This document shows, in pieces, positions 4,034 to 31,254 of a stretch of DNA of 62,451 bases; positions within the stretch are counted from its first letter, which is position 1; every line of letters begins with the position of its first letter. The notes under the pieces are model-generated. The model searched no databases, was not told the origin of the DNA, and worked only from the letters and a program-made list of their open reading frames with translations. The DNA lies in IMG/VR virus record IMGVR_UViG_3300046452_000226, positions 1 through 62,451 of that record. One strand, 5' to 3'. This DNA is from a virus. The translations under genes and the position numbers were made by a program.

Positions 4034-5242
4034 CTAGGAAAGTAGTGTTCGATACCCATTCGACTGCATCGGCCCAGCCACCAGTCCCTCCATCGCCTCC
4101 AGCAGACGCGCCGCGCGGTTGTAGCCGATGCGCAGGTGGCGCTGGATCAGCGATATTGACGCGCGCTGGTTGGTGCGCACCAGGTTGACGGCCTGTTCGT
4201 ACAGCGGATCGCTGGCGCTGCCGTCGCCGGCGGGCACTTCGCCTTTGCCGTGGCCGTTCACCGGCCGCTGTTCACGCACTGGCTCGTCGCCCTTGGCTGG
4301 CGCCGCAACGGTCGCATTCGGTGCTGCCTTCTGTTCGCCCGGGGCATCCATCGTCGCCTCGCCGCCCAGCGCCCCAACCAGGTCATTCATCAGCTTCGCC
4401 AGCTCGCCGGCCATCAGCATGAAGTCGCCGTCGAAGCGCTCGTCGTCGTTGCGGCTGGTGATCTCGCGCTCGGTCAGCACGTCCAGCGGTTTGACCGACT
4501 TGACGGCCAAGCTCTCGTCCAGCACGAAGCTGATCTTACCGTCCCAGGTCATGGCCAGACGGGTGCACTGTTTGCCGGCCTTGATGTGGCGACGGACCTC
4601 TTCGGGATCGAGGGAGTGGTGCTTATAGCCCACCTGTGCCTTGCTCTCGCCGGTGGCGCGCAGCGTGGCGTCCTGGTCGACCGTGAAGCCGACCGGTGCT
4701 TCGTCGGTGGCCAGCCAGTCGGTCATCACGCCTACCGGCGAGCGCTGCACGCGCAGGCTTTCCAGCGGCATGCGGTCCACCGCCTTCAACAGCAGCTTGA
4801 TCACCTCGTCCGCCTTGCTCGGGCTGGCCGCGTCGACCACCAGCCAGCCATGCACCGGATCGATCCAGCAGAAGGTCTGCGCCTTGATGCTGAACGCGCG
4901 CGGCAGCAGTTCGTCCGCGACGCGCTCCTTCAGTTCCTTCATGGCCTTCTTGCCGGGCGCGAAGCCTTGGGCCTCTTCCATTTCCAGCGCGCGGGCGGCG
5001 GCCACCTGGTTGATGACGGTCGATGGCAGCAGCTTCTTCTCGGTCTCGAGCTTCAACAGCATCTGCTTGTTCACGGTATGCACCAGCCCGCCACCCGGGC
5101 GCGGCGCGGACCAGCCTTGGCGCAGCAACTCGTTGCTGCTGGCCGGCGCGAAGGCCTGCGAGGCAAGGGCTTCAGCCAGCGCGTCGGCGGTCATCTCCCA
5201 TGGGGCGGGTAAGCGGTAGATCTGTAGATTTCGGAAAAACAT
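4034..5242 (-). CDS. rdgC: RdgC-like protein fused to FtsK-gamma domain
   Basis: 402 residues. The first ~300 match RdgC: 'MFFRNLQIYRLP', 'FCWIDPVHGWLVVDA', 'VGFTVDQDATLRA', 'RLAMTWDGKISFVLDE'. RdgC forms a ring dimer on double-stranded DNA and restrains RecA. After a Pro/Ala-rich linker (~300-344), residues 345-402 match the FtsK gamma winged helix almost throughout: 'QRASISLIQRHLRIGYNRAA' then a helix and 'NGYRTLL'. In FtsK this domain recognises KOPS and contacts XerD. Host RdgC stops near residue 300, so the gamma domain is an added DNA-reading module. Lies with the ERF and exonuclease genes on the same operon. Confidence 0.85.
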   Translation of the reverse strand: MFFRNLQIYRLPAPWEMTADALAEALASQAFAPASSNELLRQGWSAPRPGGGLVHTVNKQMLLKLETEKKLLPSTVINQVAAARALEMEEAQGFAPGKKAMKELKERVADELLPRAFSIKAQTFCWIDPVHGWLVVDAASPSKADEVIKLLLKAVDRMPLESLRVQRSPVGVMTDWLATDEAPVGFTVDQDATLRATGESKAQVGYKHHSLDPEEVRRHIKAGKQCTRLAMTWDGKISFVLDESLAVKSVKPLDVLTEREITSRNDDERFDGDFMLMAGELAKLMNDLVGALGGEATMDAPGEQKAAPNATVAAPAKGDEPVREQRPVNGHGKGEVPAGDGSASDPLYEQAVNLVRTNQRASISLIQRHLRIGYNRAARLLEAMEGLVAGPMQSNGYRTLLS

Positions 5243-13582: not shown

Positions 13583-13649
13583 CAATTTGAAATAATAAAA
13601 CGATAACTAATTGGTTTGTTTGATATCCCACTCCAACAAGGACGCCTCC

Positions 13650-14258
13650 ATGACAAAGTTCGCCAACACCACTCTTTCCTTAGTATTTGCAGCGATGACC
13701 TTCGTTGCGGGCGCAGCTTCAGCAGATACCATTACCTTCGATGACGTTCCGAGCGAGGCAAGTCTAAGCGGCAGCACATATCACGGCCTTTCCTGGACCA
13801 ACTTTTTTGCGCTTAATGGCAATCAGGCATGGCCCGGTTCTGGTTATGATCATGGCACGGTGTCGGTACCTAACGTGGCGTATAACGGATTTGCCGATCC
13901 AGCCTCGTTTGGAAGTGCCGCTGGCTTCAGCTTACACGACGCCTATTTTGCTGCTGCCTGGAACGACGGCTTGACCATCCACATCGTAGGCACATCCGGC
14001 GTCAACACTTATACCAAAGACATCGTCGTCAACACCGGCGCGGCGATCGACGTAGTATTTAATTGGACCAACCTGACCAATGTGTCTTTCAGCTCTTCCG
14101 GTGGCACTTGGAACTCGGGCCTGAATGGTTCCGGTGAACATTTTGTTATGGATAACGTGACAATCACCGCTGTCCCCGAGCCAGAAACCTACGGCATGCT
14201 GCTCGTCGGCCTAGGGCTGGTGGGCGTTGTAGCTCGCCGGCGCCAGAAGCAAGCATAA
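13650..14258 (+). CDS. Secreted PEP-CTERM sorting-signal protein
   Basis: 202 residues. A Sec signal peptide (KFANTTLSLVFAAMTFVAGA, cut near ASA-DT) leads a beta-rich, Gly/Asn/Ser-rich body. The C-terminus is a textbook PEP-CTERM tail: 'VPEPETYGMLLVGLGLVGV' followed by 'ARRRQKQA'. Exosortase recognises this tail in hosts that export extracellular polysaccharide. AAGGA 7 bases before the ATG at 13650 sets the start. It is on the opposite strand to the neighbouring cargo, ends in a strong terminator, and so looks like an independent lysogenic-conversion gene. Surface or biofilm alteration of the lysogen is a reasonable guess. Confidence 0.85.
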   Translation: MTKFANTTLSLVFAAMTFVAGAASADTITFDDVPSEASLSGSTYHGLSWTNFFALNGNQAWPGSGYDHGTVSVPNVAYNGFADPASFGSAAGFSLHDAYFAAAWNDGLTIHIVGTSGVNTYTKDIVVNTGAAIDVVFNWTNLTNVSFSSSGGTWNSGLNGSGEHFVMDNVTITAVPEPETYGMLLVGLGLVGVVARRRQKQA

Positions 14259-14576: not shown

Positions 14577-14843
14577 TCAGCGCTTATTTCGGAAGGCCGG
14601 GCGGGAACTTGTCGCTCTCGGCGAGTCGATATGACGGAACGTAATTCGGCCCTTGCTTAAGTCGTATGCGGAAAGCTCTAGGGTTACGCGATCGCCGGCG
14701 AGGATACGGATGAAGTTTTTCTTCATTCGGCCAGCGGTGTAGGCAATAAGTTTGTGGCCGTTTTCTAATTCGACGCGGAAACGGGTATCTGGCAGGATGT
14801 CTTGGACAACGCCTTGCATCTCGATGAGTTCTTCTTTTGCCAT
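14577..14843 (-). CDS. infA: Translation initiation factor IF-1 homologue
   Basis: 88 residues. The whole IF-1 OB fold is present: '[20 protein letters not shown]', '[20 protein letters not shown]', '[20 protein letters not shown]', '[10 protein letters not shown]'. IF-1 sits in the ribosomal A site and, with IF-2 and IF-3, checks the start codon. This copy has a 16-residue basic C-terminal extension absent from E. coli IF-1. A phage-borne infA is unusual. It follows the cold-shock-domain gene by 3 bases, so the two form a translation/RNA operon. Confidence 0.9.
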
Positions 14844-14846
14844 GAC

Positions 14847-15065
14847 TTAGACCCCCTGTACGAGGTGGATCTGGCGAGCCTGTCCGCCGAAATCTGAGTT
14901 GGTGAGCTTGTACGAGACAAGCTTGTGTTCAAGCGAGCCTGCTGGCTGCGCATCAACGAAATCACTTATGTTGGCCATGACATCATAGCCGCCGGCATTC
15001 GGCCTGATCTGGCCAATACCTTTTAACCTGCTAAACCAATGGATAGTTCCCGTATGTGTACTGAT
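14847..15065 (-). CDS. Cold-shock-domain protein with apparent ATC start
   Basis: The 72-residue frame follows the CspA plan: 'STHTGTIHWFSRLKGIGQIR' then 'PNAGGYDVMANISDF', and a last strand with 'GQARQIHLVQ'. The expected initiator position holds ATC: AGGAG ends 6 bases before it and an in-frame TAG lies just upstream, so no ATG or GTG precedes the domain. The first ATG in frame (14978) would leave half a domain. The RNA-binding motifs are altered: KGFGFI is KGIGQI and VFVHF is VMANI, so most stacking aromatics are lost. Either it starts at ATC, or a start mutation has silenced it. Confidence 0.65.
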   Translation of the reverse strand: MSTHTGTIHWFSRLKGIGQIRPNAGGYDVMANISDFVDAQPAGSLEHKLVSYKLTNSDFGGQARQIHLVQGV

Positions 15066-15312
15066 ATGTTGCTCCTAACTGTTGACGAATTTACCCAACT
15101 CTTTGGTAGAGCCAAAGGTCAAGATTCGGACAGGAATGGGCTAGGCCTAAACAGGAAGGAAAAAAGACGGTGGCACGATGCAGAGATGGGAGTCGAGAGT
15201 GTACAGCAAATGGGTATATTAACCTATTAAACCGGTAAATTAGGGCTCTTATCAGCATAAATGGCTAATTTGCTGAGCCGGGGCTCGAGTGGGCGCGACC
15301 GGTGCCCTGCGT

Positions 15313-15336
15313 AAAAAAGCCCGCGTGCGGCGGGCT
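15313..15336 (-). terminator. Terminator of the kinase/DUF3037 operon
   Basis: On the minus strand AGCCCGC / GCGGGCT is followed by a run of T (plus-strand A run at 15313-15318). It lies 23 bases after the DUF3037-type gene. The rest of 15066-15312 holds no gene I can support; it would contain the promoter and leader of the cold-shock-domain gene. Confidence 0.8.
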
Positions 15337-15358
15337 CCTTACTTAGCATCGTAAGAGT

Positions 15359-16201
15359 TCAATGGGTGACGAAGCTGATGATCTCGACTTTCCGTTCGTA
15401 CGTCAGAACTTCGGCTCCGACTCCTTTTAACTCGTTCACAACATCACGAAATGCTTTGCCTGTGGCCGGCGTCGCCAATTCGCCAGGCCCCTCAACCGTG
15501 ACCAGTACCCTATCCGGCAGTGTTTTTTTTCGTTTTAGCTGTGCGAGCTTCCATATCCAAGCGCCGCCGTGATCAAGAATTTTACTTGGTTGATCTTGCC
15601 CAAGATTTAATGGCTTAATTGCAGTGATAACAGCGCCATTTCGCTCTTCCGCAAATGGGAAAGTCGCGTGATACTCATCATTCCCCACCTCCAGCCTTTC
15701 GAAACGGCCACTGACGCCCGCCTCCTGAAACCATTTGCGGAGCGTCCGTTCTAATACCTGCTCTCTGTACAGCGGCGTCACAAAGTCACGCTCGACGTAA
15801 TAACCGTACAGCTCTTCCAGTTTTGTTTTTGCATCAGTTAAAAGGACGCCGCGAATATCGCTGAATTTGATTACGGCCTCACGTGGTCGTACAATTTCGT
15901 TGAACAGGGTGCGCGCAAAATCGGCATCATTGTGTTTCAGGCGTTTATCAAAACCGTGCTGCTGTAAAAGCCGATGAATTCGATCAAACTCCTCTTTGAG
16001 GTTTTGCATGGCGGCTTTAAACACTGGCGCATCAAGTTGCTCAAAAAAGTCGGTCACACGAGCGTGCTTCTTCGTCATCAACTTGAAGTGAAAAATGCGA
16101 TGTTCCGGCGAAATGATCACTATGCCAACATTGGCGAATTCTTCCGTCTCCACAAAGGGACAGAAGCGAACTATCGCATACAGGCAGGGAATCTTTTTCA
16201 T
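15359..16201 (-). CDS. DUF3037-type partner of HipA-like kinase
   Basis: 280 residues. The start 'KIPCLYAIVRFCPFVETEEF' and 'ANVGIVIISPEHR' is characteristic of DUF3037 proteins, which occur beside HipA-like kinases. The function of the family is not established. The ATG at 16201 overlaps the kinase stop by 4 bases (ATGA), so the two are translated together; an in-frame ATG at 16213 is an alternative. A terminator follows. Possible roles are antitoxin, kinase substrate or co-effector; I cannot tell from sequence. Confidence 0.75.
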   Translation of the reverse strand: MKKIPCLYAIVRFCPFVETEEFANVGIVIISPEHRIFHFKLMTKKHARVTDFFEQLDAPVFKAAMQNLKEEFDRIHRLLQQHGFDKRLKHNDADFARTLFNEIVRPREAVIKFSDIRGVLLTDAKTKLEELYGYYVERDFVTPLYREQVLERTLRKWFQEAGVSGRFERLEVGNDEYHATFPFAEERNGAVITAIKPLNLGQDQPSKILDHGGAWIWKLAQLKRKKTLPDRVLVTVEGPGELATPATGKAFRDVVNELKGVGAEVLTYERKVEIISFVTH

Positions 16202-16932
16202 GTTACGGTCCAAAAAGCGTTGCTTCGACAGTCTAGCAAGGATTGCTTGAGTCCGTCTCTATCGAACGCGACGGGTATTGTGCACTCCGGGTCGACAAAC
16301 CACCACTCAGGAGGAACAGTATCGCAGATCGCATCCCATGTTGCCATAGCTGATTCGAACCTGCGCGCATACTGATCCCTATCAACTAGGTCAGAAAATA
16401 CAGTCCTTAAGTGATCTCGAAACGGGTGCAATTCTTCAAACAGACCGGAGTCGAACTCCTCGTCAAATGCCTGATTGTGATCGAGCACGAGAAGACTATC
16501 GCTGTCGACATCCCAAAATAAGTTGGGATTTCCTCCGAGCTCGGTTTGCGTTCTATCCCCATTTTTTATCCACCAGTCAAACAAAAGTACATCTCGCTGG
16601 AGAGTATTAGGAATCTGGAGTAAATGTGACACCGTCAGCTCAACAATTGTCCGTCGACACGAACCGAACGCGAACCCCGCGCCCAGTTGTGCCAAGTCGC
16701 TTCGCGACGCAAGATCTATCAAATCCTGTGGAACGAAGACCAACTCAAAATTGGCGATCGGCAGCCCAAGCTCACGTGCGAGCGAGCCAGCGATCCATTC
16801 GCAAATGAGACTACGCCTTGCGGCACCGTACCCCTTTACGAAGTATACTTTCTCATCATCGCCACGGCAGATGAACGGCAAGGTCATGCCTTGCTCTGAC
16901 CGCCCGATGATTTCAACTATTTCTACCGCCAT
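16198..16932 (-). CDS. HipA-like protein kinase
   Basis: 244 residues, shorter than E. coli HipA (~440), so it is a minimal kinase of the HipA_2 type. Seen: a lysine in 'KVYFVKGYGAARRSL' (K33), then 'CEWIAGSLARELGLP'; a catalytic segment 'DWWIKNGDRTQ' with D119/D126 and N135 in 'GGNPNLFWD'; and a DFG-like 'LLVLDHNQAFD' (D151). HipA proteins phosphorylate host targets such as glutamyl-tRNA synthetase and cause growth arrest; whether this one does is unknown. No HipB-like HTH gene is adjacent; instead the partner is DUF3037-like. A perfect inverted repeat lies just upstream. Confidence 0.8.
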   Translation of the reverse strand: MAVEIVEIIGRSEQGMTLPFICRGDDEKVYFVKGYGAARRSLICEWIAGSLARELGLPIANFELVFVPQDLIDLASRSDLAQLGAGFAFGSCRRTIVELTVSHLLQIPNTLQRDVLLFDWWIKNGDRTQTELGGNPNLFWDVDSDSLLVLDHNQAFDEEFDSGLFEELHPFRDHLRTVFSDLVDRDQYARRFESAMATWDAICDTVPPEWWFVDPECTIPVAFDRDGLKQSLLDCRSNAFWTVT

Positions 16933-16960
16933 GTAACCCCGCGATTCTCTTCCTCTGCAT

Positions 16961-16979
16961 GCGCATCAAGATGATGCGC
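16961..16979. repeat. Perfect inverted repeat upstream of the kinase
   Basis: GCGCATCA-AGA-TGATGCGC, 8-bp arms, 29 bases before the kinase start and 10 bases after the lipoprotein stop. With no T tract it may be an operator for the kinase operon, or a hairpin at the 3' end of the lipoprotein message. Confidence 0.45.
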
Positions 16980-16988
16980 GGCTAATCT

Positions 16989-17150
16989 TTACGCAACGCC
17001 GCCGTGCGACGAGCAAGCGCCTTGCTTGTCTTTCGAGTGCGAAATCCAGCCATCCTTGCACTGGACTGTGTCGTCGCTACCGTTTCCTCCACCGCAGCCG
17101 GCGAGTGTGATTAACGAAACGACGGCCAGGCAGATAGCGATGAACTTCAT
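16989..17150 (-). CDS. Small DUF3761-like lipoprotein, 53 aa
   Basis: A signal sequence ends in the lipobox LAGC (C19). The mature part has 'CKDGWISHSKDKQGACSSHG' then GV, the Cys-Asp-Gly ... Cys-Ser-x-His-Gly-Gly-Val pattern of DUF3761. It would be attached to a membrane by lipid. The frame was checked by hand from the ATG at 17150. It shares its motif with the next gene. Confidence 0.65.
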   Translation of the reverse strand: MKFIAICLAVVSLITLAGCGGGNGSDDTVQCKDGWISHSKDKQGACSSHGGVA

Positions 17151-17283
17151 ATAATTCCTCATGACGGCAAGGACGTGCCGTTTCGTAGTTGAATTATATG
17201 GTTTGTTGACGCTTGGAAAACTATCTAATTGTCACGATGATATCGCATATGGCTCGCAAATAGTCTTCCAATGATCTTCGAGC

Positions 17284-17595
17284 TCACAACCAGGCTGATA
17301 CACCGCCATGGCCTGAACACGTCCCGCGCCGGCTCTTGCTGAAGCTGTAGCTCCCATCTCGGCACTTCGCGCTGGCGCCGGCCGGCACCTTGCCGTCGAC
17401 GGACTTCGCCGGCGAGTGCACTTCCTGGCCAGCTTTGTTCACGTAGTGGTTGTGCGTCTGCAGGTCAGCTTCGTTTGGATCGGCTTTCTTCGGCGCGGCG
17501 GGTGCAGCAGGCGCGCTGGCCGACGGCGCCAGTTGGGCGAAGGTTGGGGCGACCAAGGAGGCCGCCAGGAGCAGGGTGGTGAGCAAAGTTCTCAT
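17284..17595 (-). CDS. Secreted DUF3761-like protein, 103 aa
   Basis: A clear signal peptide (cleavage near PTFA-QL) and an Ala/Pro-rich spacer precede 'HNHYVNKAGQEVHSPAKSVD' and the C-terminal 'CRDGSYSFSKSRRGTCSGHG' motif. This is the same motif as in the upstream lipoprotein, so the two are paralogues with different anchoring. Function of the family is not established. Likely periplasmic. Confidence 0.75.
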   Translation of the reverse strand: MRTLLTTLLLAASLVAPTFAQLAPSASAPAAPAAPKKADPNEADLQTHNHYVNKAGQEVHSPAKSVDGKVPAGASAKCRDGSYSFSKSRRGTCSGHGGVSAWL

Positions 17596-17661
17596 GGCCG
17601 TCCTTCCCGGAGGTGGGATATCGTTGCGTATCGGATGGTGCCGGGGGCTATTCTTCGAAAG

Positions 17662-18222
17662 TCAAGGCTTTGCCTCAGCTGGAGTTCCCTCTTGCAGCGT
17701 CGAATCAGCACTCTTTTTTTGCAGAAGTTTCGAGCAATCTGTCTTCATTTCTGGATATTTCCGTCGGAATACATCTCCCGCCTTTGTCATTCCGCGCCCA
17801 CATCGTTCCAATTCGGCGACATGCCTTTCCATAAGCGCAACCTGAACGCGAGGGTTACCTTCATTCTTCTCTTGGAACTGCTTATTCAATTTATCTGATG
17901 TCTTGATGCCTAAATCGTAACTACAATAAAGGCCTTCCAGCTCATCAGCCGGCATCGAGTCTAATTCAGGAAATTCAATATTCTCGCACTGCATTCCCCG
18001 CAGCGAAAACTTAAGTTTCCGGTCGGGCGACTGTGTCGGTTTCATAGGTACTTGTGCAGCTGGAATTGCTGGCGCAGAAATGCGATCGAGGGCATCAAAG
18101 CACGCAGACTTCTTTGTGGCTGGCTTCAATGTACTGCACGCATCCCTGAGAACATCTTTATCGGATGCGGTCGCGTCAAGGGAGAGAAAAATTGCGATGA
18201 TTGAGAAATAGAATTTTTTCAC
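17662..18222 (-). CDS. Secreted hypothetical protein, 186 aa
   Basis: Signal peptide MKKFYFSIIAIFLSLDATAS. The mature part begins 'DACSTLKPATKKSACFDALD', a cysteine pair spaced like small disulphide-linked helical hairpins in secreted proteins, with more cysteines later (C78, C99, C141, C162). The DNA is AT-rich compared with the rest of the window. Probably periplasmic lysogen cargo; no function assigned. Confidence 0.65.
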   Translation of the reverse strand: MKKFYFSIIAIFLSLDATASDKDVLRDACSTLKPATKKSACFDALDRISAPAIPAAQVPMKPTQSPDRKLKFSLRGMQCENIEFPELDSMPADELEGLYCSYDLGIKTSDKLNKQFQEKNEGNPRVQVALMERHVAELERCGRGMTKAGDVFRRKYPEMKTDCSKLLQKKSADSTLQEGTPAEAKP

Positions 18223-18287
18223 GAAAAGGCCTCTAGATAGATGGCCTAATTGTATGAAAGATTGACAACTGGAAATCTCTCCAATTA

Positions 18288-18515
18288 TTACATTTGGTCA
18301 AGTACCTTGCGAAGCATGGATTTGAGTTCGGCTATTTCGGACAGGATCTGCTCGGAAGGGGACGCTTGAAGTCTAGCAATGATCTCAGCGTTAAAGCTGC
18401 GGCCATTTGCCTTCGCCTCTTCATGCAGGCGGTCCCTAAGCGCGGGGGGAAACCTTACTGCAGATTGAACGTAGTCCTTCTGCAACACTTTTTTTATGGG
18501 TGATTTCGTCATCAC
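18288..18515 (-). CDS. Arc-like ribbon-helix-helix repressor
   Basis: 75 residues. 'YVQSAVRFPPALRDRLHEEA' then 'KANGRSFNAEIIARLQ' is the Arc/MetJ fold: a beta strand, helix A, then the conserved Gly-Arg-Ser-x-Asn-x-Glu helix B. Arc of P22 controls an antirepressor; here the target is unknown. An inverted repeat with TGTTTCC arms lies 38 bases upstream and may be its operator. Confidence 0.85.
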   Translation of the reverse strand: MMTKSPIKKVLQKDYVQSAVRFPPALRDRLHEEAKANGRSFNAEIIARLQASPSEQILSEIAELKSMLRKVLDQM

Positions 18516-18697: not shown

Positions 18698-18943
18698 ATG
18701 AAGCGAAGAGAAAGATGGATCGCGGCATGGGATGCTATGGATGAGCGCCGCCAAAATGAGAATCTAGAGTTGGCCGAATCCGACGCGCTGGACTACCCGG
18801 CCAAACGAGTGCCCAAACTACGCCTTCTTACTGTGGGCGATGGCGATCTGCGCGACCATCGGGACTCGCTCCGCAACCTTCATGATGCGAGTCCTGCCTT
18901 CGTCGTCCGTTCCATTGAAAAACGAAAGAAGCCTGATCGCTGA
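18698..18943 (+). CDS. Doubtful 81-aa reading frame opposite repressor end
   Basis: The first 40 codons ([20 protein letters not shown]) cover an otherwise empty stretch, but the rest runs antisense through the end of the repressor gene. No strong ribosome site. It may be a real small basic protein or chance; I lean to chance. Confidence 0.25.
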
Positions 18944-19270
18944 CGTAAGGCGGTCATTTGCCGCTGAGTCAAGCTCATCCGTCGTCACCGGCACTGACTC
19001 GTCCGCGTCTGGCGATGGTGGCAACTCATGAGAGGCGGCGGGTGCGAACCCGTGAGCGCCGACAACGTCGGGCAGCCCCTTCCCAGTCTCCAGCCAAAGC
19101 GCGCTTACACCAAGCTCCTTCGCGAACGACGCGATAAGCGTGGTGCCCTTGGATTTGCCGCCTTCTAGGTCAGCAATAGTGCCCTGGGCAAGACCCACTC
19201 TGGCAGCGAGAGCTGCCTGAGTAAGTTTCGCTTGCTTTCTGGCTTGTTTAATTCGAGTTCCTATAGACAT
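18818..19270 (-). CDS. CI-like phage repressor
   Basis: 150 residues. An XRE-type helix-turn-helix fills residues 3-60: '[20 protein letters not shown]', '[19 protein letters not shown]', then '[12 protein letters not shown]'. The C-terminus lacks the Ser/Lys protease pair of LexA-type repressors, so it is a short repressor that is not self-cleaved in the usual way. It is divergent from the Cro-like gene across 73 bp holding two strong 16-bp operators. The upstream frame extension to 19594 is spurious. The ATG at 19270 may start a leaderless or very short-leader message (CAATAT lies a few bases upstream). Confidence 0.85.
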
Positions 19271-19343: not shown

Positions 19344-19610
19344 ATGAACATTCCCTTCACTATCTCAGGTCTTCGGAAGATCGGGCTTACCCAAACCCAG
19401 ATCGGCTTAGAAATCGGCCTCAAGCAGCCCTCAATCAGCGACATGGAGTCGGGTAAGGCGGGCATCACAAATCCTTCCAGCCGAGTGGAGAAGGGGCTGG
19501 CTGCGCTTGCTGCTAAGCACAACGTGCCTACCGAGCCGGGACCTTCATCTAACTTCAATTCCCTGTCCACCGCAGTGACCCAGGTCAACACCACCGGAGA
19601 AACCGCATGA
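19344..19610 (+). CDS. Cro-like regulator
   Basis: 88 residues with a compact helix-turn-helix: '[20 protein letters not shown]' then '[19 protein letters not shown]'. Divergent from the CI-like gene and first on the rightward early transcript, the position of cro in lambdoid phages. No ribosome site precedes the ATG at 19344, which fits a leaderless start. The C-terminal 30 residues are a flexible tail. The stop overlaps the next gene by 4 bases. Confidence 0.8.
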
Positions 19611-23221: not shown

Positions 23222-23307
23222 TGGCGTGACAGAACTGCCGGTTCGGCATGCTGCACGCCGCATCCGATGCCAGTCACCATTGCGCGCCGCGCAGCGGGAG
23301 CACGGCC

Positions 23308-25203
23308 ATGAAGCGCGATCTGGTAGTCCACACAAAGGAATTCACCCACTTCCACTTCTGCTGCGGCCTCGGTGGCGGCAAGCAGGGCTTCAACGCTGCG
23401 CAGCCCCAGGTCGGCAATATGGCCGCCACATTGCGCTGCATCGGCGGTATTGACGTCGATCCCGCCGCCATCCGCGACTTCGATCGTGCTGGACCTGGCC
23501 GGCCGGGTACGGTCATGGACCTCTTCACTCGCGCCCAGTACACCGCGTTCCACGGCAAGGAACCGCCGTCCGACTGGCGCGAAGTTACGGCCGTCGATAT
23601 CCGCCGGGCTGCCGGCAACGAGTCGCCCAACATCGTTTTCATCAGCTCGCCGTGCAAAGGCGCGTCCGGTCTGCTGAGCGAGTCGCTGAGTAAAACCGCG
23701 AAGTACCAGGCGCTCAACGAGCTGACGCTGCGCTGCATCTGGCTGATGGCCGAAGCGTGGGCGGACAATCCGGTCGACCTGATCGTGTTCGAGAACGTGC
23801 CGCGCCTGGCCACGCGCGGCCGGCATCTACTGGACCAGATCAACCAGCTACTCCAGCAGTTCGGCTACGCCGTCGCCGAGACGACGCACGATTGCGGCGA
23901 GATCGGCGGCCTGGCGCAGAGCCGCAAGCGCTTCCTGCTAGTAGCGCGCCACATGGAGAAGGTGCCGCCGTTTCTGTACGAACCGGAGAAGAAGCGGCTG
24001 CGCGCGGTCGGCGACGTCCTGGGGCGCATGCCCTTCCCGGGCGATGACGCCGGCGGGCCGATGCACCGCATTCCGCGCTTGCAGTGGAAAACGTGGGTAC
24101 GCCTCGCGTTCGTTGAAGCAGGCAGCGATTGGCGCAGCCTGAATCGCCTGGCCGTGGAAGACGGCCACCTGAGCGAATACTTGATTCTTCCCGAGCGCAG
24201 CCACGACTACCTCGGTGTCAACGCGTGGGAGCACCACATCGGCGCCGTATCTGGACGCGGCACGCCCACCACTGGCGCCTATTCGGTTGCGGACCCGCGC
24301 ATGGACACCCAGGCCGAATACAGCCAATACGGGGTTATGCCATGGGCGGACACGAGCGGCGTTATCAGCGCGCAATCCGCGCCTGGTGGAGGCAAGTATT
24401 CCGTTGCCGATCCGCGCCCACCGGCCGGGCCGCTATTCAGTAAATACGCGGTCACTCGCTGGGATAAGCGCACCGGCACGGTCATCGGCGGCGACGACCA
24501 GGGCGCATACGCCGTGGCCGATCCACGGTCGAGCACGGGCTTCGAAGGTGCTGGTAAATATCTCGTCACTTCGTTCGATGAGGCCTCCGGAACGGTCATC
24601 GCCGGTAGCACGACGGGGCAGGGCGCGTTCGCCGTTGCGGACCCGCGCAGCGGCATAAATAGCCGGGTGAAGGGCGATGCCTACCTGACTGGTGGGCACT
24701 ATGGTGTCCTTCCTTGGGATGGACAAAGCGGTGCGGTGAGTGCATCTGCTGGCTACGACAACGGCCGCTGGTCAGTCGCGGACCCGCGCATCGATGCGGC
24801 GCCGGCGTTGCCCGCGCAGAACCAGAAGACGGTGGCGATCATCCGCGCGCTGGACGGCACCTGGCATCGCCCGTTCACAACGCTGGAGCTGGCCGCCCTG
24901 CAATCGCTGATTGATCCGAGCGAGCACTGGTCGACGGATGCGCAGACGCAGCGCGAAATCGACGAACACAAGCGCCGGACCGGCGCCAGCGCATTTCCGA
25001 TGCTGGACGGCACCAATGACAGCGCTCACCGTGAGCGCATCGGCAACGCCGTGCCGAAGTTGGCCGCCCAGGCGATCGGCGAAGTGATGGGCACGACGCT
25101 GCTGCTGGCCGCCGCCGGCGAGACGTTCATGCTCAGCGCGATGCCGATCTGGGTGCAGCCGGTAGCCATCGCGATCGCATCCTCGCAGGGATCGACGTTA
25201 TGA
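23308..25203 (+). CDS. Cytosine C5 DNA methyltransferase with internal repeats
   Basis: 631 residues. Motif I 'FHFCCGLGGGKQGF' (AdoMet), motif IV 'SSPCKGAS' with C116 (canonical PPC is SPC here), motif VI ENV at 162-164, motif VIII 'QSRKRFLLVA', and C-terminal motif IX/X 'RIGNAVPKLAAQAIGEVM'. The enzyme would methylate C5 of cytosine. Between motif VIII and the end, where the target-recognition domain is expected, about five ~35-40-residue repeats end in VADPR. GGGAG 7 bases before the ATG at 23308 sets the start. It probably protects phage DNA from host restriction; no restriction enzyme is adjacent. Confidence 0.85.
   Translation: MKRDLVVHTKEFTHFHFCCGLGGGKQGFNAAQPQVGNMAATLRCIGGIDVDPAAIRDFDRAGPGRPGTVMDLFTRAQYTAFHGKEPPSDWREVTAVDIRRAAGNESPNIVFISSPCKGASGLLSESLSKTAKYQALNELTLRCIWLMAEAWADNPVDLIVFENVPRLATRGRHLLDQINQLLQQFGYAVAETTHDCGEIGGLAQSRKRFLLVARHMEKVPPFLYEPEKKRLRAVGDVLGRMPFPGDDAGGPMHRIPRLQWKTWVRLAFVEAGSDWRSLNRLAVEDGHLSEYLILPERSHDYLGVNAWEHHIGAVSGRGTPTTGAYSVADPRMDTQAEYSQYGVMPWADTSGVISAQSAPGGGKYSVADPRPPAGPLFSKYAVTRWDKRTGTVIGGDDQGAYAVADPRSSTGFEGAGKYLVTSFDEASGTVIAGSTTGQGAFAVADPRSGINSRVKGDAYLTGGHYGVLPWDGQSGAVSASAGYDNGRWSVADPRIDAAPALPAQNQKTVAIIRALDGTWHRPFTTLELAALQSLIDPSEHWSTDAQTQREIDEHKRRTGASAFPMLDGTNDSAHRERIGNAVPKLAAQAIGEVMGTTLLLAAAGETFMLSAMPIWVQPVAIAIASSQGSTL
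24200..24789 (+). repeat. Five protein-level repeats in the methyltransferase
   Basis: Each unit reads Y-x-V-x-x-W-(D/E) ... (S/T)-G-(T/A/V)-V ... G-x-(Y/F/W)-(S/A)-V-A-D-P-R. The VADPR ends fall near 24300, 24418, 24530, 24650 and 24789. DNA identity between units is low, so the repeats are old or under selection at protein level. They lie at the target-recognition position. Confidence 0.8.
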
Positions 25204-27062: not shown

Positions 27063-27071
27063 ATCGTAGCA
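27063..27071 (-). promoter_or_regulatory. Extended -10 of antisense cassette 26868-27035
   Basis: Minus strand TGCTACGAT, 27 bases before the cassette ATG. Its first base is the complement of the A in the plus gene's ATG at 27071. Confidence 0.5.
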
Positions 27072-28300
27072 TGAACCAAGTCGACATTTTCGCTGCCGGA
27101 GCCACGCGTCTGCAAATGACCGATTCCATCGAGATGACGATTCAGTCGCTGCTGGCCTACGGCGCGTCGCATGAGCACTGGGGTATCGCTTGGTCCGGTG
27201 GGAAGGACAGTAGCGCCACGCTCACCCTGATCATCTGGCTGCTCGACACCGGCCGCGTGCCACACCCTAAGACCCTGACGGTCTTCTACGCCGATACCCG
27301 CCAGGAATTGCTGCCGCTGGCCCACGCTGCCCAGCAGATCATCGACGAACTTCGCGAGCGCGGCATCCAGGTTGAAGTCGTGACCGCGCCCCTGGACAAG
27401 CGCTTCATGGTCTACATCCTGGGGCGCGGCGTGCCGCCGCCGAACAACAATACGCTGCGCTGGTGCACGCGTCAGATCAAGATCGATCCGATGCAGCACG
27501 CGCTTGAGCAGCGCCTCGCGGAGCTCGACGGCCAGGTGCTGATGATTACAGGCGTGCGCCAAGGCGAGAGCGCAATCCGCGACCAGCGCATCGAAATGAG
27601 TTGCAGCAAGGACGGCGCCGAGTGTGGTCAGGGCTGGTATCAGAAGGTGCTGCCGGAGGCTAAGGGCCTTCGCGGCCGGCTGGCCACGCTGGCGCCGCTG
27701 CTGCACTGGCGTGTCTGCCATGTGTGGGAATGGTTGCGCCACTGGGCGCCTGGCGCCGAGTTCGGCGATTGGAGCACGGCCGCGATCGCGGAGGCCTACG
27801 GCGGCGACGAGGCGGAGGAGATCAACGCGCGCACCGGCTGCACCGGCTGCCCGCTGGTTGACACCGATATGGCGCTGGACAACATCCTGCTGAATCCGCA
27901 GTGGTCCTACCTAGCGCCGCTGAAGCGCATTAAGCCTCTTTGGCGCGAACTGCGACTGCCACAGTACCGCCTGCGCAAGGCGGGGCTGGAGATCTTGAAA
28001 AGCGGAAAGACCGCGGCGAATCCGCAGCGTATGGGCCCTTTGACGTTCGAAGCGCGCCTGATGGGCCTAGCGACGATCCTTGGCATTCAGGCTGATGTGA
28101 ACGCGGCAGCGCGGGCCGCCGGACGGCCACTGGTCGACCTGATCAACGCTGAGGAGGAGGCGCGCATCCGCGAACTGATCGACTTGGAAACCTGGCCCCA
28201 CGGATGGGGCGGTGACGAGCCTATCGGCACTACCATCATGGACACGGTCTACGTGAACGGTGCGGTTCAGCCACGCTTGTTTTCGGAGTCCGAGCAGTGA
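27071..28300 (+). CDS. PP-loop ATPase, PAPS-reductase/DndC-like
   Basis: 409 residues. PP-loop 'WSGGKDSSATLTLI' (residues 41-54) binds ATP; 'RWCTRQIKIDP' and 'GVRQGESAIRDQRI' are typical of the PAPS reductase/DndC group. Cysteines in 'MSCSKDGAECGQGW' and 'TGCTGCPLVD' could hold an iron-sulfur cluster. DndC makes DNA phosphorothioates together with DndA/D/E; none of those is here. Possible roles are DNA or tRNA sulfur modification, or nucleotide chemistry. It sits between two DNA methyltransferases. The ATG at 27071 shares bases with the antisense promoter. Confidence 0.75.
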   Translation: MNQVDIFAAGATRLQMTDSIEMTIQSLLAYGASHEHWGIAWSGGKDSSATLTLIIWLLDTGRVPHPKTLTVFYADTRQELLPLAHAAQQIIDELRERGIQVEVVTAPLDKRFMVYILGRGVPPPNNNTLRWCTRQIKIDPMQHALEQRLAELDGQVLMITGVRQGESAIRDQRIEMSCSKDGAECGQGWYQKVLPEAKGLRGRLATLAPLLHWRVCHVWEWLRHWAPGAEFGDWSTAAIAEAYGGDEAEEINARTGCTGCPLVDTDMALDNILLNPQWSYLAPLKRIKPLWRELRLPQYRLRKAGLEILKSGKTAANPQRMGPLTFEARLMGLATILGIQADVNAAARAAGRPLVDLINAEEEARIRELIDLETWPHGWGGDEPIGTTIMDTVYVNGAVQPRLFSESEQ

Positions 28301-29802: not shown

Positions 29803-31254
29803 ATGAGCGCATTTAGCCCTGAAGAACAGGAGCAGATCGCCGCAGCGGCATACACGCTGCACGTTGGCGACTGCATCGAAGTCATGAAAACCCTGCCCGA
29901 CAATAGCGTCGACTCGGTCGTTACCGACCCGCCATACGGCATTCGGTTCATGGGGAAGGCCTGGGATGGTGCGGACATCGAGGCACGTGCCGACCGCCGC
30001 CGCAGTTTCGCCAGCCATGCGCCACATGCCGGGCCGAATGGCGGCCATAAGTCGATCGCAGCCGAGGCCGGAAAGTACGACTTGGCGCCAGCAGCGATGC
30101 GAGCGTTCCAAGAATTTAGTGAGGAATGGGCGCGCGAGGCCTTCCGGGTGCTGAAGCCAGGCGGTCACCTGCTTTCATTTTCGTCGCCGCGCACGTTTCA
30201 TCGCATGGCCTGCGGCATCGAGGACGCCGGCTTCGAGATCCGCGACCAGATCATGTGGGTTTTCGGCTCCGGGTTCCCGAAGTCGATGAATGTGGCCAAG
30301 GCCATTGAATCCGGCACCGGCCGGCCGAAGGACATTCGTCGCATGCAGATGGGTGAAGACTACACCCCATCCGGGCGTGGGCCGGAGAATTACGACTACC
30401 CGGGCCAGGAGACGATGAACGGCACGACTGCGCCATGGGTTCCATTCACCGAGGCTGCCAAGGAGTGGGAAGGCTGGGGCACCGCATTGAAGCCGGCACA
30501 CGAGCCGATCTGCGTCGCACGCAAACCACTTTCAGGAACCGTAGTTGCCAATATTCTGCTGTTCAGCACTGGGGCGCTGAATATTGATGGCTGCCGTGTC
30601 GAGCCAACGGGCGAGAGCCGCGAGCGTGCTGGCGAGCCATCGCAGGACCAGCGCTACACCAGTGCCGGCAGTACAAACTTCGCCGCGAAGCCCGGTGTGC
30701 GTGGCGGCGCGCCAGAGGGGCGGTGGCCGGCAAATTTGATACACGACGGCAGTGGAGAGGTTTTAGCTCTGTTCCCATCGCAAGCTGGCGCCGGTGCTCT
30801 CGCACGCCACGCCGATGCCAGCGCGTCACGCTTTTTCTACTGCGCCAAGGCCAGCCGCCAGGATCGCAATGAAGGTTTGCCAAGCAGTGCAGAGCCAGCG
30901 GTGACCACTGATGCAACCATGCGCGCCTGCGAAGACGCCGACTGGGCGAAGCGCAATGGCAACCATCATCCGACGGTTAAACCCACGGAGCTCATGGCCT
31001 ATCTCGTGCGCTTGGTCACAGTAATTGGCGGCACGGTGCTCGATCCCTTCATGGGTAGCGGAAGCACCGGAAAAGCATGCATGCGAGAGGGTATGCAGTT
31101 CATCGGTATAGAAATGGATCCCGACTATTTGGCGATCGCCGAGGCCCGGGTGAGATATGAGATCGGTGCGGTGGCCCGCCGCGCGGAAGAGGCAGCGTTG
31201 GCGGCGAAAGCCGCGTCGCAGCAGAAAACGATTTTTGAATTGGACGGAATATGA
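29803..31254 (+). CDS. DNA amino-methyltransferase (N6-A or N4-C)
   Basis: 483 residues. 'DSVVTDPPYGIRFMGKAWDG' holds the catalytic DPPY (42-45), and 'GGTVLDPFMGSGSTGKA' with 'GMQFIGIEMDPDYLAIAEAR' is the AdoMet site near the C-terminus. The order catalytic motif first, AdoMet motif last is the beta class. DPPY favours N6-adenine. A long middle part (~70-380) would read the target. No restriction gene adjoins, so it is an orphan, probably anti-restriction enzyme. Its stop overlaps the HNH gene start (ATGA). Confidence 0.85.
   Translation: MSAFSPEEQEQIAAAAYTLHVGDCIEVMKTLPDNSVDSVVTDPPYGIRFMGKAWDGADIEARADRRRSFASHAPHAGPNGGHKSIAAEAGKYDLAPAAMRAFQEFSEEWAREAFRVLKPGGHLLSFSSPRTFHRMACGIEDAGFEIRDQIMWVFGSGFPKSMNVAKAIESGTGRPKDIRRMQMGEDYTPSGRGPENYDYPGQETMNGTTAPWVPFTEAAKEWEGWGTALKPAHEPICVARKPLSGTVVANILLFSTGALNIDGCRVEPTGESRERAGEPSQDQRYTSAGSTNFAAKPGVRGGAPEGRWPANLIHDGSGEVLALFPSQAGAGALARHADASASRFFYCAKASRQDRNEGLPSSAEPAVTTDATMRACEDADWAKRNGNHHPTVKPTELMAYLVRLVTVIGGTVLDPFMGSGSTGKACMREGMQFIGIEMDPDYLAIAEARVRYEIGAVARRAEEAALAAKAASQQKTIFELDGI

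Follow-up and report, generated by a model that had tools for sequence, protein, structure and literature searches.

Gene pairs encoding a HipA-family kinase and a DUF3037 protein are listed by PADLOC as the candidate system PDC-M66, and their role in anti-phage defence, under the name HipAD, was validated no earlier than 2025-2026. In Retron-Sda1, defence against phage Bas51 was lost when the kinase was deleted, and deleting the DUF3037 gene was toxic, while the retron parts were dispensable (PMC12548924). In DS-6, since renamed HipAD, a predicted catalytic point mutant of the kinase lost defence, and AlphaFold3 predicted a complex of the kinase with its partner (PMC13092281). As far as the account in PMC13092281 goes, HipAD is credited to Brenes and Laub (2025), who studied prophage defence in E. 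coli. The lambdoid coliphage PhiR5_1 (PV340545.1) carries a pair annotated as HipA toxin and HipD antitoxin. Copies of this pair at a level of at least 95% are found in 284 of 5426 complete E. coli genomes. The gene order in PhiR5_1 is cI, HipA, HipD, kil, gam, and the place behind cI is the one that rexAB occupies in lambda.

Here we describe a kinase/DUF3037 pair in a 62451-base virus record from IMG/VR, the whole of which was analysed and is referred to as the window. The record encodes a terminase, a portal protein, Erf, a YqaJ-type recombinase, RdgC, NinB and an antirepressor. Both PADLOC profiles for PDC-M66 matched the pair as judged by E-value (PDC-M66A, 2.6e-15; PDC-M66B, 9.3e-23). 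In our view the pair is most likely a toxin-antitoxin module of the HipAD type (PDC-M66, DS-6), carried as immunity-region cargo by a temperate phage whose host is Oxalobacteraceae-like, and would halt growth upon superinfection. The suggestion of the first-pass annotation that these genes form a growth-arrest or anti-phage module agrees with the tests of relatives (PMC12548924, PMC13092281) and with the PDC-M66 listing. This reading assigns the pair to an already-known kind of system: the anti-phage interpretation is already in print for relatives, and the window copy is a divergent member from a betaproteobacterial phage. The features of the locus are as follows.

15313-15336, minus strand: intrinsic terminator behind the pair, with a 7-bp GC stem, 5-nt loop and U6 (fold prediction)
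15359-16201, minus strand: DUF3037 partner, 280 aa, antitoxin candidate (HipD of HipAD; PDC-M66B); PF11236, E=7e-25
16198-16201, minus strand: ATGA overlap of kinase stop and partner start, read in the sequence; the same overlap type occurs in nearly all relatives
16198-16932, minus strand: HipA-like kinase, 244 aa, toxin candidate (HipA of HipAD; PDC-M66A); PF20613, E=2.9e-88
16961-16979, no strand: inverted repeat upstream of the kinase, probably incidental; 8-bp arms, 3-nt spacer
16989-18515, minus strand: four small ORFs between repressor and kinase, the rest of the cargo slot, comprising the next four entries
16989-17150, minus strand: 53-aa lipoprotein-like ORF
17284-17595, minus strand: DUF3761 protein
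17662-18222, minus strand: ORF without an assigned family
18288-18515, minus strand: Arc-like small ORF (Arc/RHH-like)
18818-19270, minus strand: CI/C2-type HTH repressor, upstream of the pair; PF01381, E=3e-9; phrog_4 transcriptional repressor, E=1.4e-18
19344-19610, plus strand: divergent Cro-like regulator; phrog_6831 transcriptional regulator, E=4e-11

The kinase matches PF20613 (HipA_2) over the whole length of the model, as well as phrog_3162 (E=1.3e-50). PF20613 is its only Pfam match, with none to the HipA_C and Couple_hipA domains of classical HipA. Twelve residues are invariant across 64 kinases (K33, E45, D119, N124, D126, R127, N137, D151, N153, F156, H169 and W210), and among these we take K33 to be the ATP lysine, D126 and N137 to belong to the catalytic loop and D151 to be the metal aspartate. 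On this alignment the predicted catalytic residues are intact, and the earlier description of a 244-residue HipA-like kinase retaining them holds, with K33, E45, N124, D126, R127, N137 and D151 all preserved in the relatives. The kinase sequence itself found no match in the PDB. Its AlphaFold2 model (pLDDT 94.7) gave as top PDB fold matches in Foldseek PI4KIIalpha, CtkA of H. pylori, actin-fragmin kinase and Fam20C, while HipA structures matched more weakly (3tpv, E=4.9e-3, prob 0.90; 4pu3, E=1e-2, prob 0.92), such that the model lies nearer to PI4KII and CtkA than to HipA. Judged by this model, 'HipA-like' is a fair label for the predicted fold and 'classical HipA' is not.

The partner is predicted to comprise two domains: DUF3037 at residues 1-137, with the Pfam match covering residues 8-136, and a C-terminal domain at approximately 143-280. 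It also matches phrog_5137 (E=3.7e-55), and nine of its residues (P15, T19, E21, F22, N24, G26, R48, F52 and W215) do not vary across 57 sequences. In the AlphaFold2 model (pLDDT 93.7, pTM 0.68) both domains are confident, with their mutual orientation uncertain, and the C-terminal domain follows an alpha-beta-beta-beta-alpha-beta order. Pfam searches with the C-terminal half gave no match down to E=10, and a fold search with the partner gave no PDB match below 1e-3. Fold matches to the C-terminal domain were weak and PD-(D/E)XK-like only (Hef/XPF, EcoO109I and an Rpb5-like subunit). A nuclease role for this domain was considered and rejected, as the conserved pattern keeps the lysine K196 but lacks the acidic catalytic pair. 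The predicted fold of the partner thus has no significant match, and how it might inhibit the kinase is not readable from the model. Three loci (L016, L018 and L212) encode short partners with the DUF3037 domain only.

DUF3037 genes beside such kinases had been described in the first-pass annotation as having no defined role, with the protein proposed as either a partner or a substrate of the kinase. The former statement is superseded by the antitoxin-like behaviour of the tested relative in Retron-Sda1, where loss of the DUF3037 gene is toxic (PMC12548924). The same result favours a partner; we found no support for a substrate, and rejected that role since the tested relative points to an antitoxin.

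The architecture of the operon largely follows its initial description. The partner ATG lies at 16201, giving the expected ATGA coupling to a DUF3037-like gene, and a single predicted terminator hairpin with a U-run lies directly behind the partner; the stretch containing it (15305-15352) has a folding energy of -18.9 kcal/mol (z -2.25). As had been noted, the pair has no HipB-like HTH gene beside it; the nearest HTH protein, encoded on the same strand 1.9 kb upstream, is the repressor of the phage. The repeat before the operon, described as a perfect 19-bp inverted repeat, is present but not perfect over 19 bp; it consists of two arms around a spacer, GCGCATCA-AGA-TGATGCGC. Hairpins with 8-bp arms and loops of 3-8 number eight in the window and 2-15 in shuffled sequences, and L011, the closest relative, lacks the repeat in front of its kinase. 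Because of this chance-level frequency and its absence from L011, we rejected the repeat as a notable operator and dropped it as evidence.

We then surveyed relatives of the pair. Single-sequence scans of viral contigs gave none, and queries built from alignments found kinase relatives on at least 176. DUF3037 partners adjoin the kinase in all 80 of the kinase-found viral loci with enough DNA (the best 80 of the 176). Amongst 295 genomes around Duganella, the kinase scored above cut-off in 18 and DUF3037 in 19; both were found in 17, adjacent in every case, where independence would predict about one genome with both. The two genes do not decay equally. The partner is kept beside a broken kinase in L214 (transposase insertion) and in L215, L004 and L151 (frameshifts), and without a kinase in L164 and L221, while no kinase lacking the DUF3037 domain was seen among the surveyed loci except at a contig edge. 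The cases are few and the evidence indirect, and on sequence grounds this tolerance of kinase loss, with DUF3037 loss unseen, is the pattern expected of a toxin and its antitoxin.

Decay of the kinase in other loci is also what would be expected if the pair were degenerate or inert and merely carried along without function, and the G+C content of the window pair (0.49-0.51, compared with 0.61 in the phage) identifies it as a recent arrival. However, neither reading frame is interrupted, every invariant residue is in place, and the divergence of the pair from its nearest relative, L011 of Duganella sp. 1411 (77% for the kinase, 81% for the partner), has been under strong purifying selection. 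Relative to L011, pN is 0.14 for the kinase and 0.11 for the partner with synonymous sites saturated, values that indicate that both genes are under purifying selection. We consider an inert pair extremely improbable.

The repressor and the divergent Cro-like gene mark the immunity region. The pair shares the strand of the repressor and lies downstream of it, at a separation (1.9 kb and four small ORFs) that is longer than usual and that makes co-transcription with the repressor uncertain. The related phages L224 and L225 match one flank (the IF-1 homologue at 93-94%, Erf and YqaJ) and, more weakly, the gene to the right of the immunity region; neither carries the kinase or DUF3037, and other genes occupy the slot. 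The pair is exchangeable cargo. The first-pass annotation had called the element a prophage. A temperate phage is supported by the phage genes, the repressor and Cro-like pair and the antirepressor, but no tyrosine integrase was found in the whole record, so integration is only inferred, from the repressor.

Several further features of the slot and the record were observed. The DUF3761 and lipoprotein-like ORFs stand in tandem and share a similar C-terminal motif, CxDGxxSxSKxxxGxCSxHGGV; the DUF3761 protein is 93% conserved in L225, a phage without the kinase pair. What looks like an ORF of the same kind as the Arc/RHH-like protein of the window lies 87 bp before the L011 kinase (L011:9670-9915). 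Beyond the terminator, the homologue of translation initiation factor IF-1 (14577-14843, minus strand; PF01176, E=4e-23; phrog_30201, E=1.5e-38) has relatives in 241 candidate stretches of viral contigs. Upstream of it, 15039-15230 is near-identical in L225, with about 80 bases unchanged, far above the surrounding similarity; this stretch has no Rfam match, and an exact 33-mer from it is found nowhere else among the viral contigs. Elsewhere, a gene of PAPS-reductase/DndC-like type lies between two DNA methyltransferase genes (27071-28300, 23248-25203 and 29803-31254 for the three genes, all plus strand); the DndC-like protein matches PADLOC DndC (E=4e-30), and the three genes are possibly a DNA-modification or counter-defence cluster. 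The RdgC homologue is fused to an FtsK gamma domain (4034-5242, minus strand; PF04381 and PF09397), and the phage record also encodes a secreted protein with a PEP-CTERM sorting signal (13611-14258, plus strand).

Across 56 non-redundant viral loci, the pair lies at most 400 bp behind a same-strand CI-type repressor in 32 and at most 2.5 kb behind one in 40. Among 290 other long ORFs at these viral loci, taken as a control, none held the position behind CI, nor was it seen in any of eight chromosomal loci. This recurrence directly behind CI would also suit a kinase acting on the cycle of its own phage, for example by modifying CI or a host factor for lysis-lysogeny, with the partner tuning it; RexA, which holds the same place in lambda, is reported to bias the lambda switch (PMC11077077). 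Against such a role, chromosomes and plasmids hold the pair without a CI neighbour, so the pair works without CI, and defence by the tested relatives needs no phage genes (PMC12548924). We regard a role in the phage's own switch as very unlikely.

The second setting concerns the clade to which the window kinase belongs (support 99/88). Five of its ten members are chromosomal copies in or beside type I restriction operons (L012, L013, L014, L015 and L206, with HsdR, HsdS and HsdM identified by Pfam); in L013 the kinase gene begins immediately after the hsdS stop, and in L015 and L206 its start overlaps that stop. The first-pass annotation had counted a distribution unrelated to prophages and defence islands against its proposal. 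The distribution is non-random, with at least 176 viral contigs carrying kinase relatives and half of the ten-member clade in the company of type I restriction. These operons also bear on whether the pair is a selfish addiction module, in which the same toxin and antitoxin would kill cells that lose the phage and play no role against other phages. The toxin-antitoxin anatomy, the asymmetric decay and the copies on plasmids are all consistent with addiction, yet type I restriction operons house close relatives, the relatives that were tested protect against phage (PMC12548924, PMC13092281), and the scheme would fail if the partner were stable. Addiction alone seems to us unlikely.

Under the preferred reading of a HipAD-type defence module, the kinase would be a minimal atypical kinase with a HipA/CtkA/PI4K-like fold that acts as the toxin, and the DUF3037 protein from the overlapping next gene would bind it and hold it inactive. 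The pair would be expressed in the lysogen from the repressor-side operon. Infection by another phage would lift the restraint, and the freed kinase would phosphorylate a target, such that growth would cease before the infecting phage could complete its development (abortive infection). A more speculative version, which we consider unlikely, has phage HipAD wired to lysogeny, policing superinfection and punishing loss of the prophage. Because the pair would lie in the transcription unit of the repressor, loss of repressor transcription on induction or superinfection would shift the toxin-antitoxin balance; the antitoxin C-terminal domain, which may be a degenerate PD-(D/E)XK-like fold, might sense invading DNA.

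Collectively, our survey places the module repeatedly in two contexts: in phages it follows CI repressors, and elsewhere it is embedded in type I restriction operons. Our analysis adds the near-inseparable pairing, decay that falls mostly on the kinase, the adjacency to CI (which may already have been described by Brenes and Laub 2025), the type I restriction setting and the related phages that do not carry the pair. The natural variants, including the short partners without the C-terminal domain, offer material for separating restraint of the kinase from sensing of phage.

With respect to known systems, the pair of Retron-Sda1 is the same as that of the window via the shared PDC-M66 assignment, a likeness drawn from description, and differs in having as its neighbour a type III-A1 retron, which is dispensable for it. 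DS-6, also likened by description, combines a HipA-family kinase with a DUF3037 protein. DS-6B is reported to have a DUF1829 domain (PMC13092281), whereas neither the window partner, despite its confidently predicted C-terminal domain, nor HipD of PhiR5_1 has a Pfam match to DUF1829. HipBA and HipBST share the broad fold and toxin logic of the window kinase, but the window pair has no HipB-type HTH antitoxin and its kinase is about half the size. Lambda RexAB and RexABpp of Pseudomonas putida (PMC12894663) are, like the window pair, two-gene cargo downstream of CI on the same strand, in their case for exclusion, and RexABpp is separated from CI by two extra genes (PMC12894663); their proteins are unrelated to the window pair, and the likeness is one of position only. 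HipAD of PhiR5_1 lies about 120 bp directly behind CI, compared with 1.9 kb and four small ORFs in the window, and identities are 32-36% for the kinase and 26-30% for the partner; the two pairs nonetheless share both protein families, their order and the overlap, and both lie within the immunity region on the strand that encodes the repressor.
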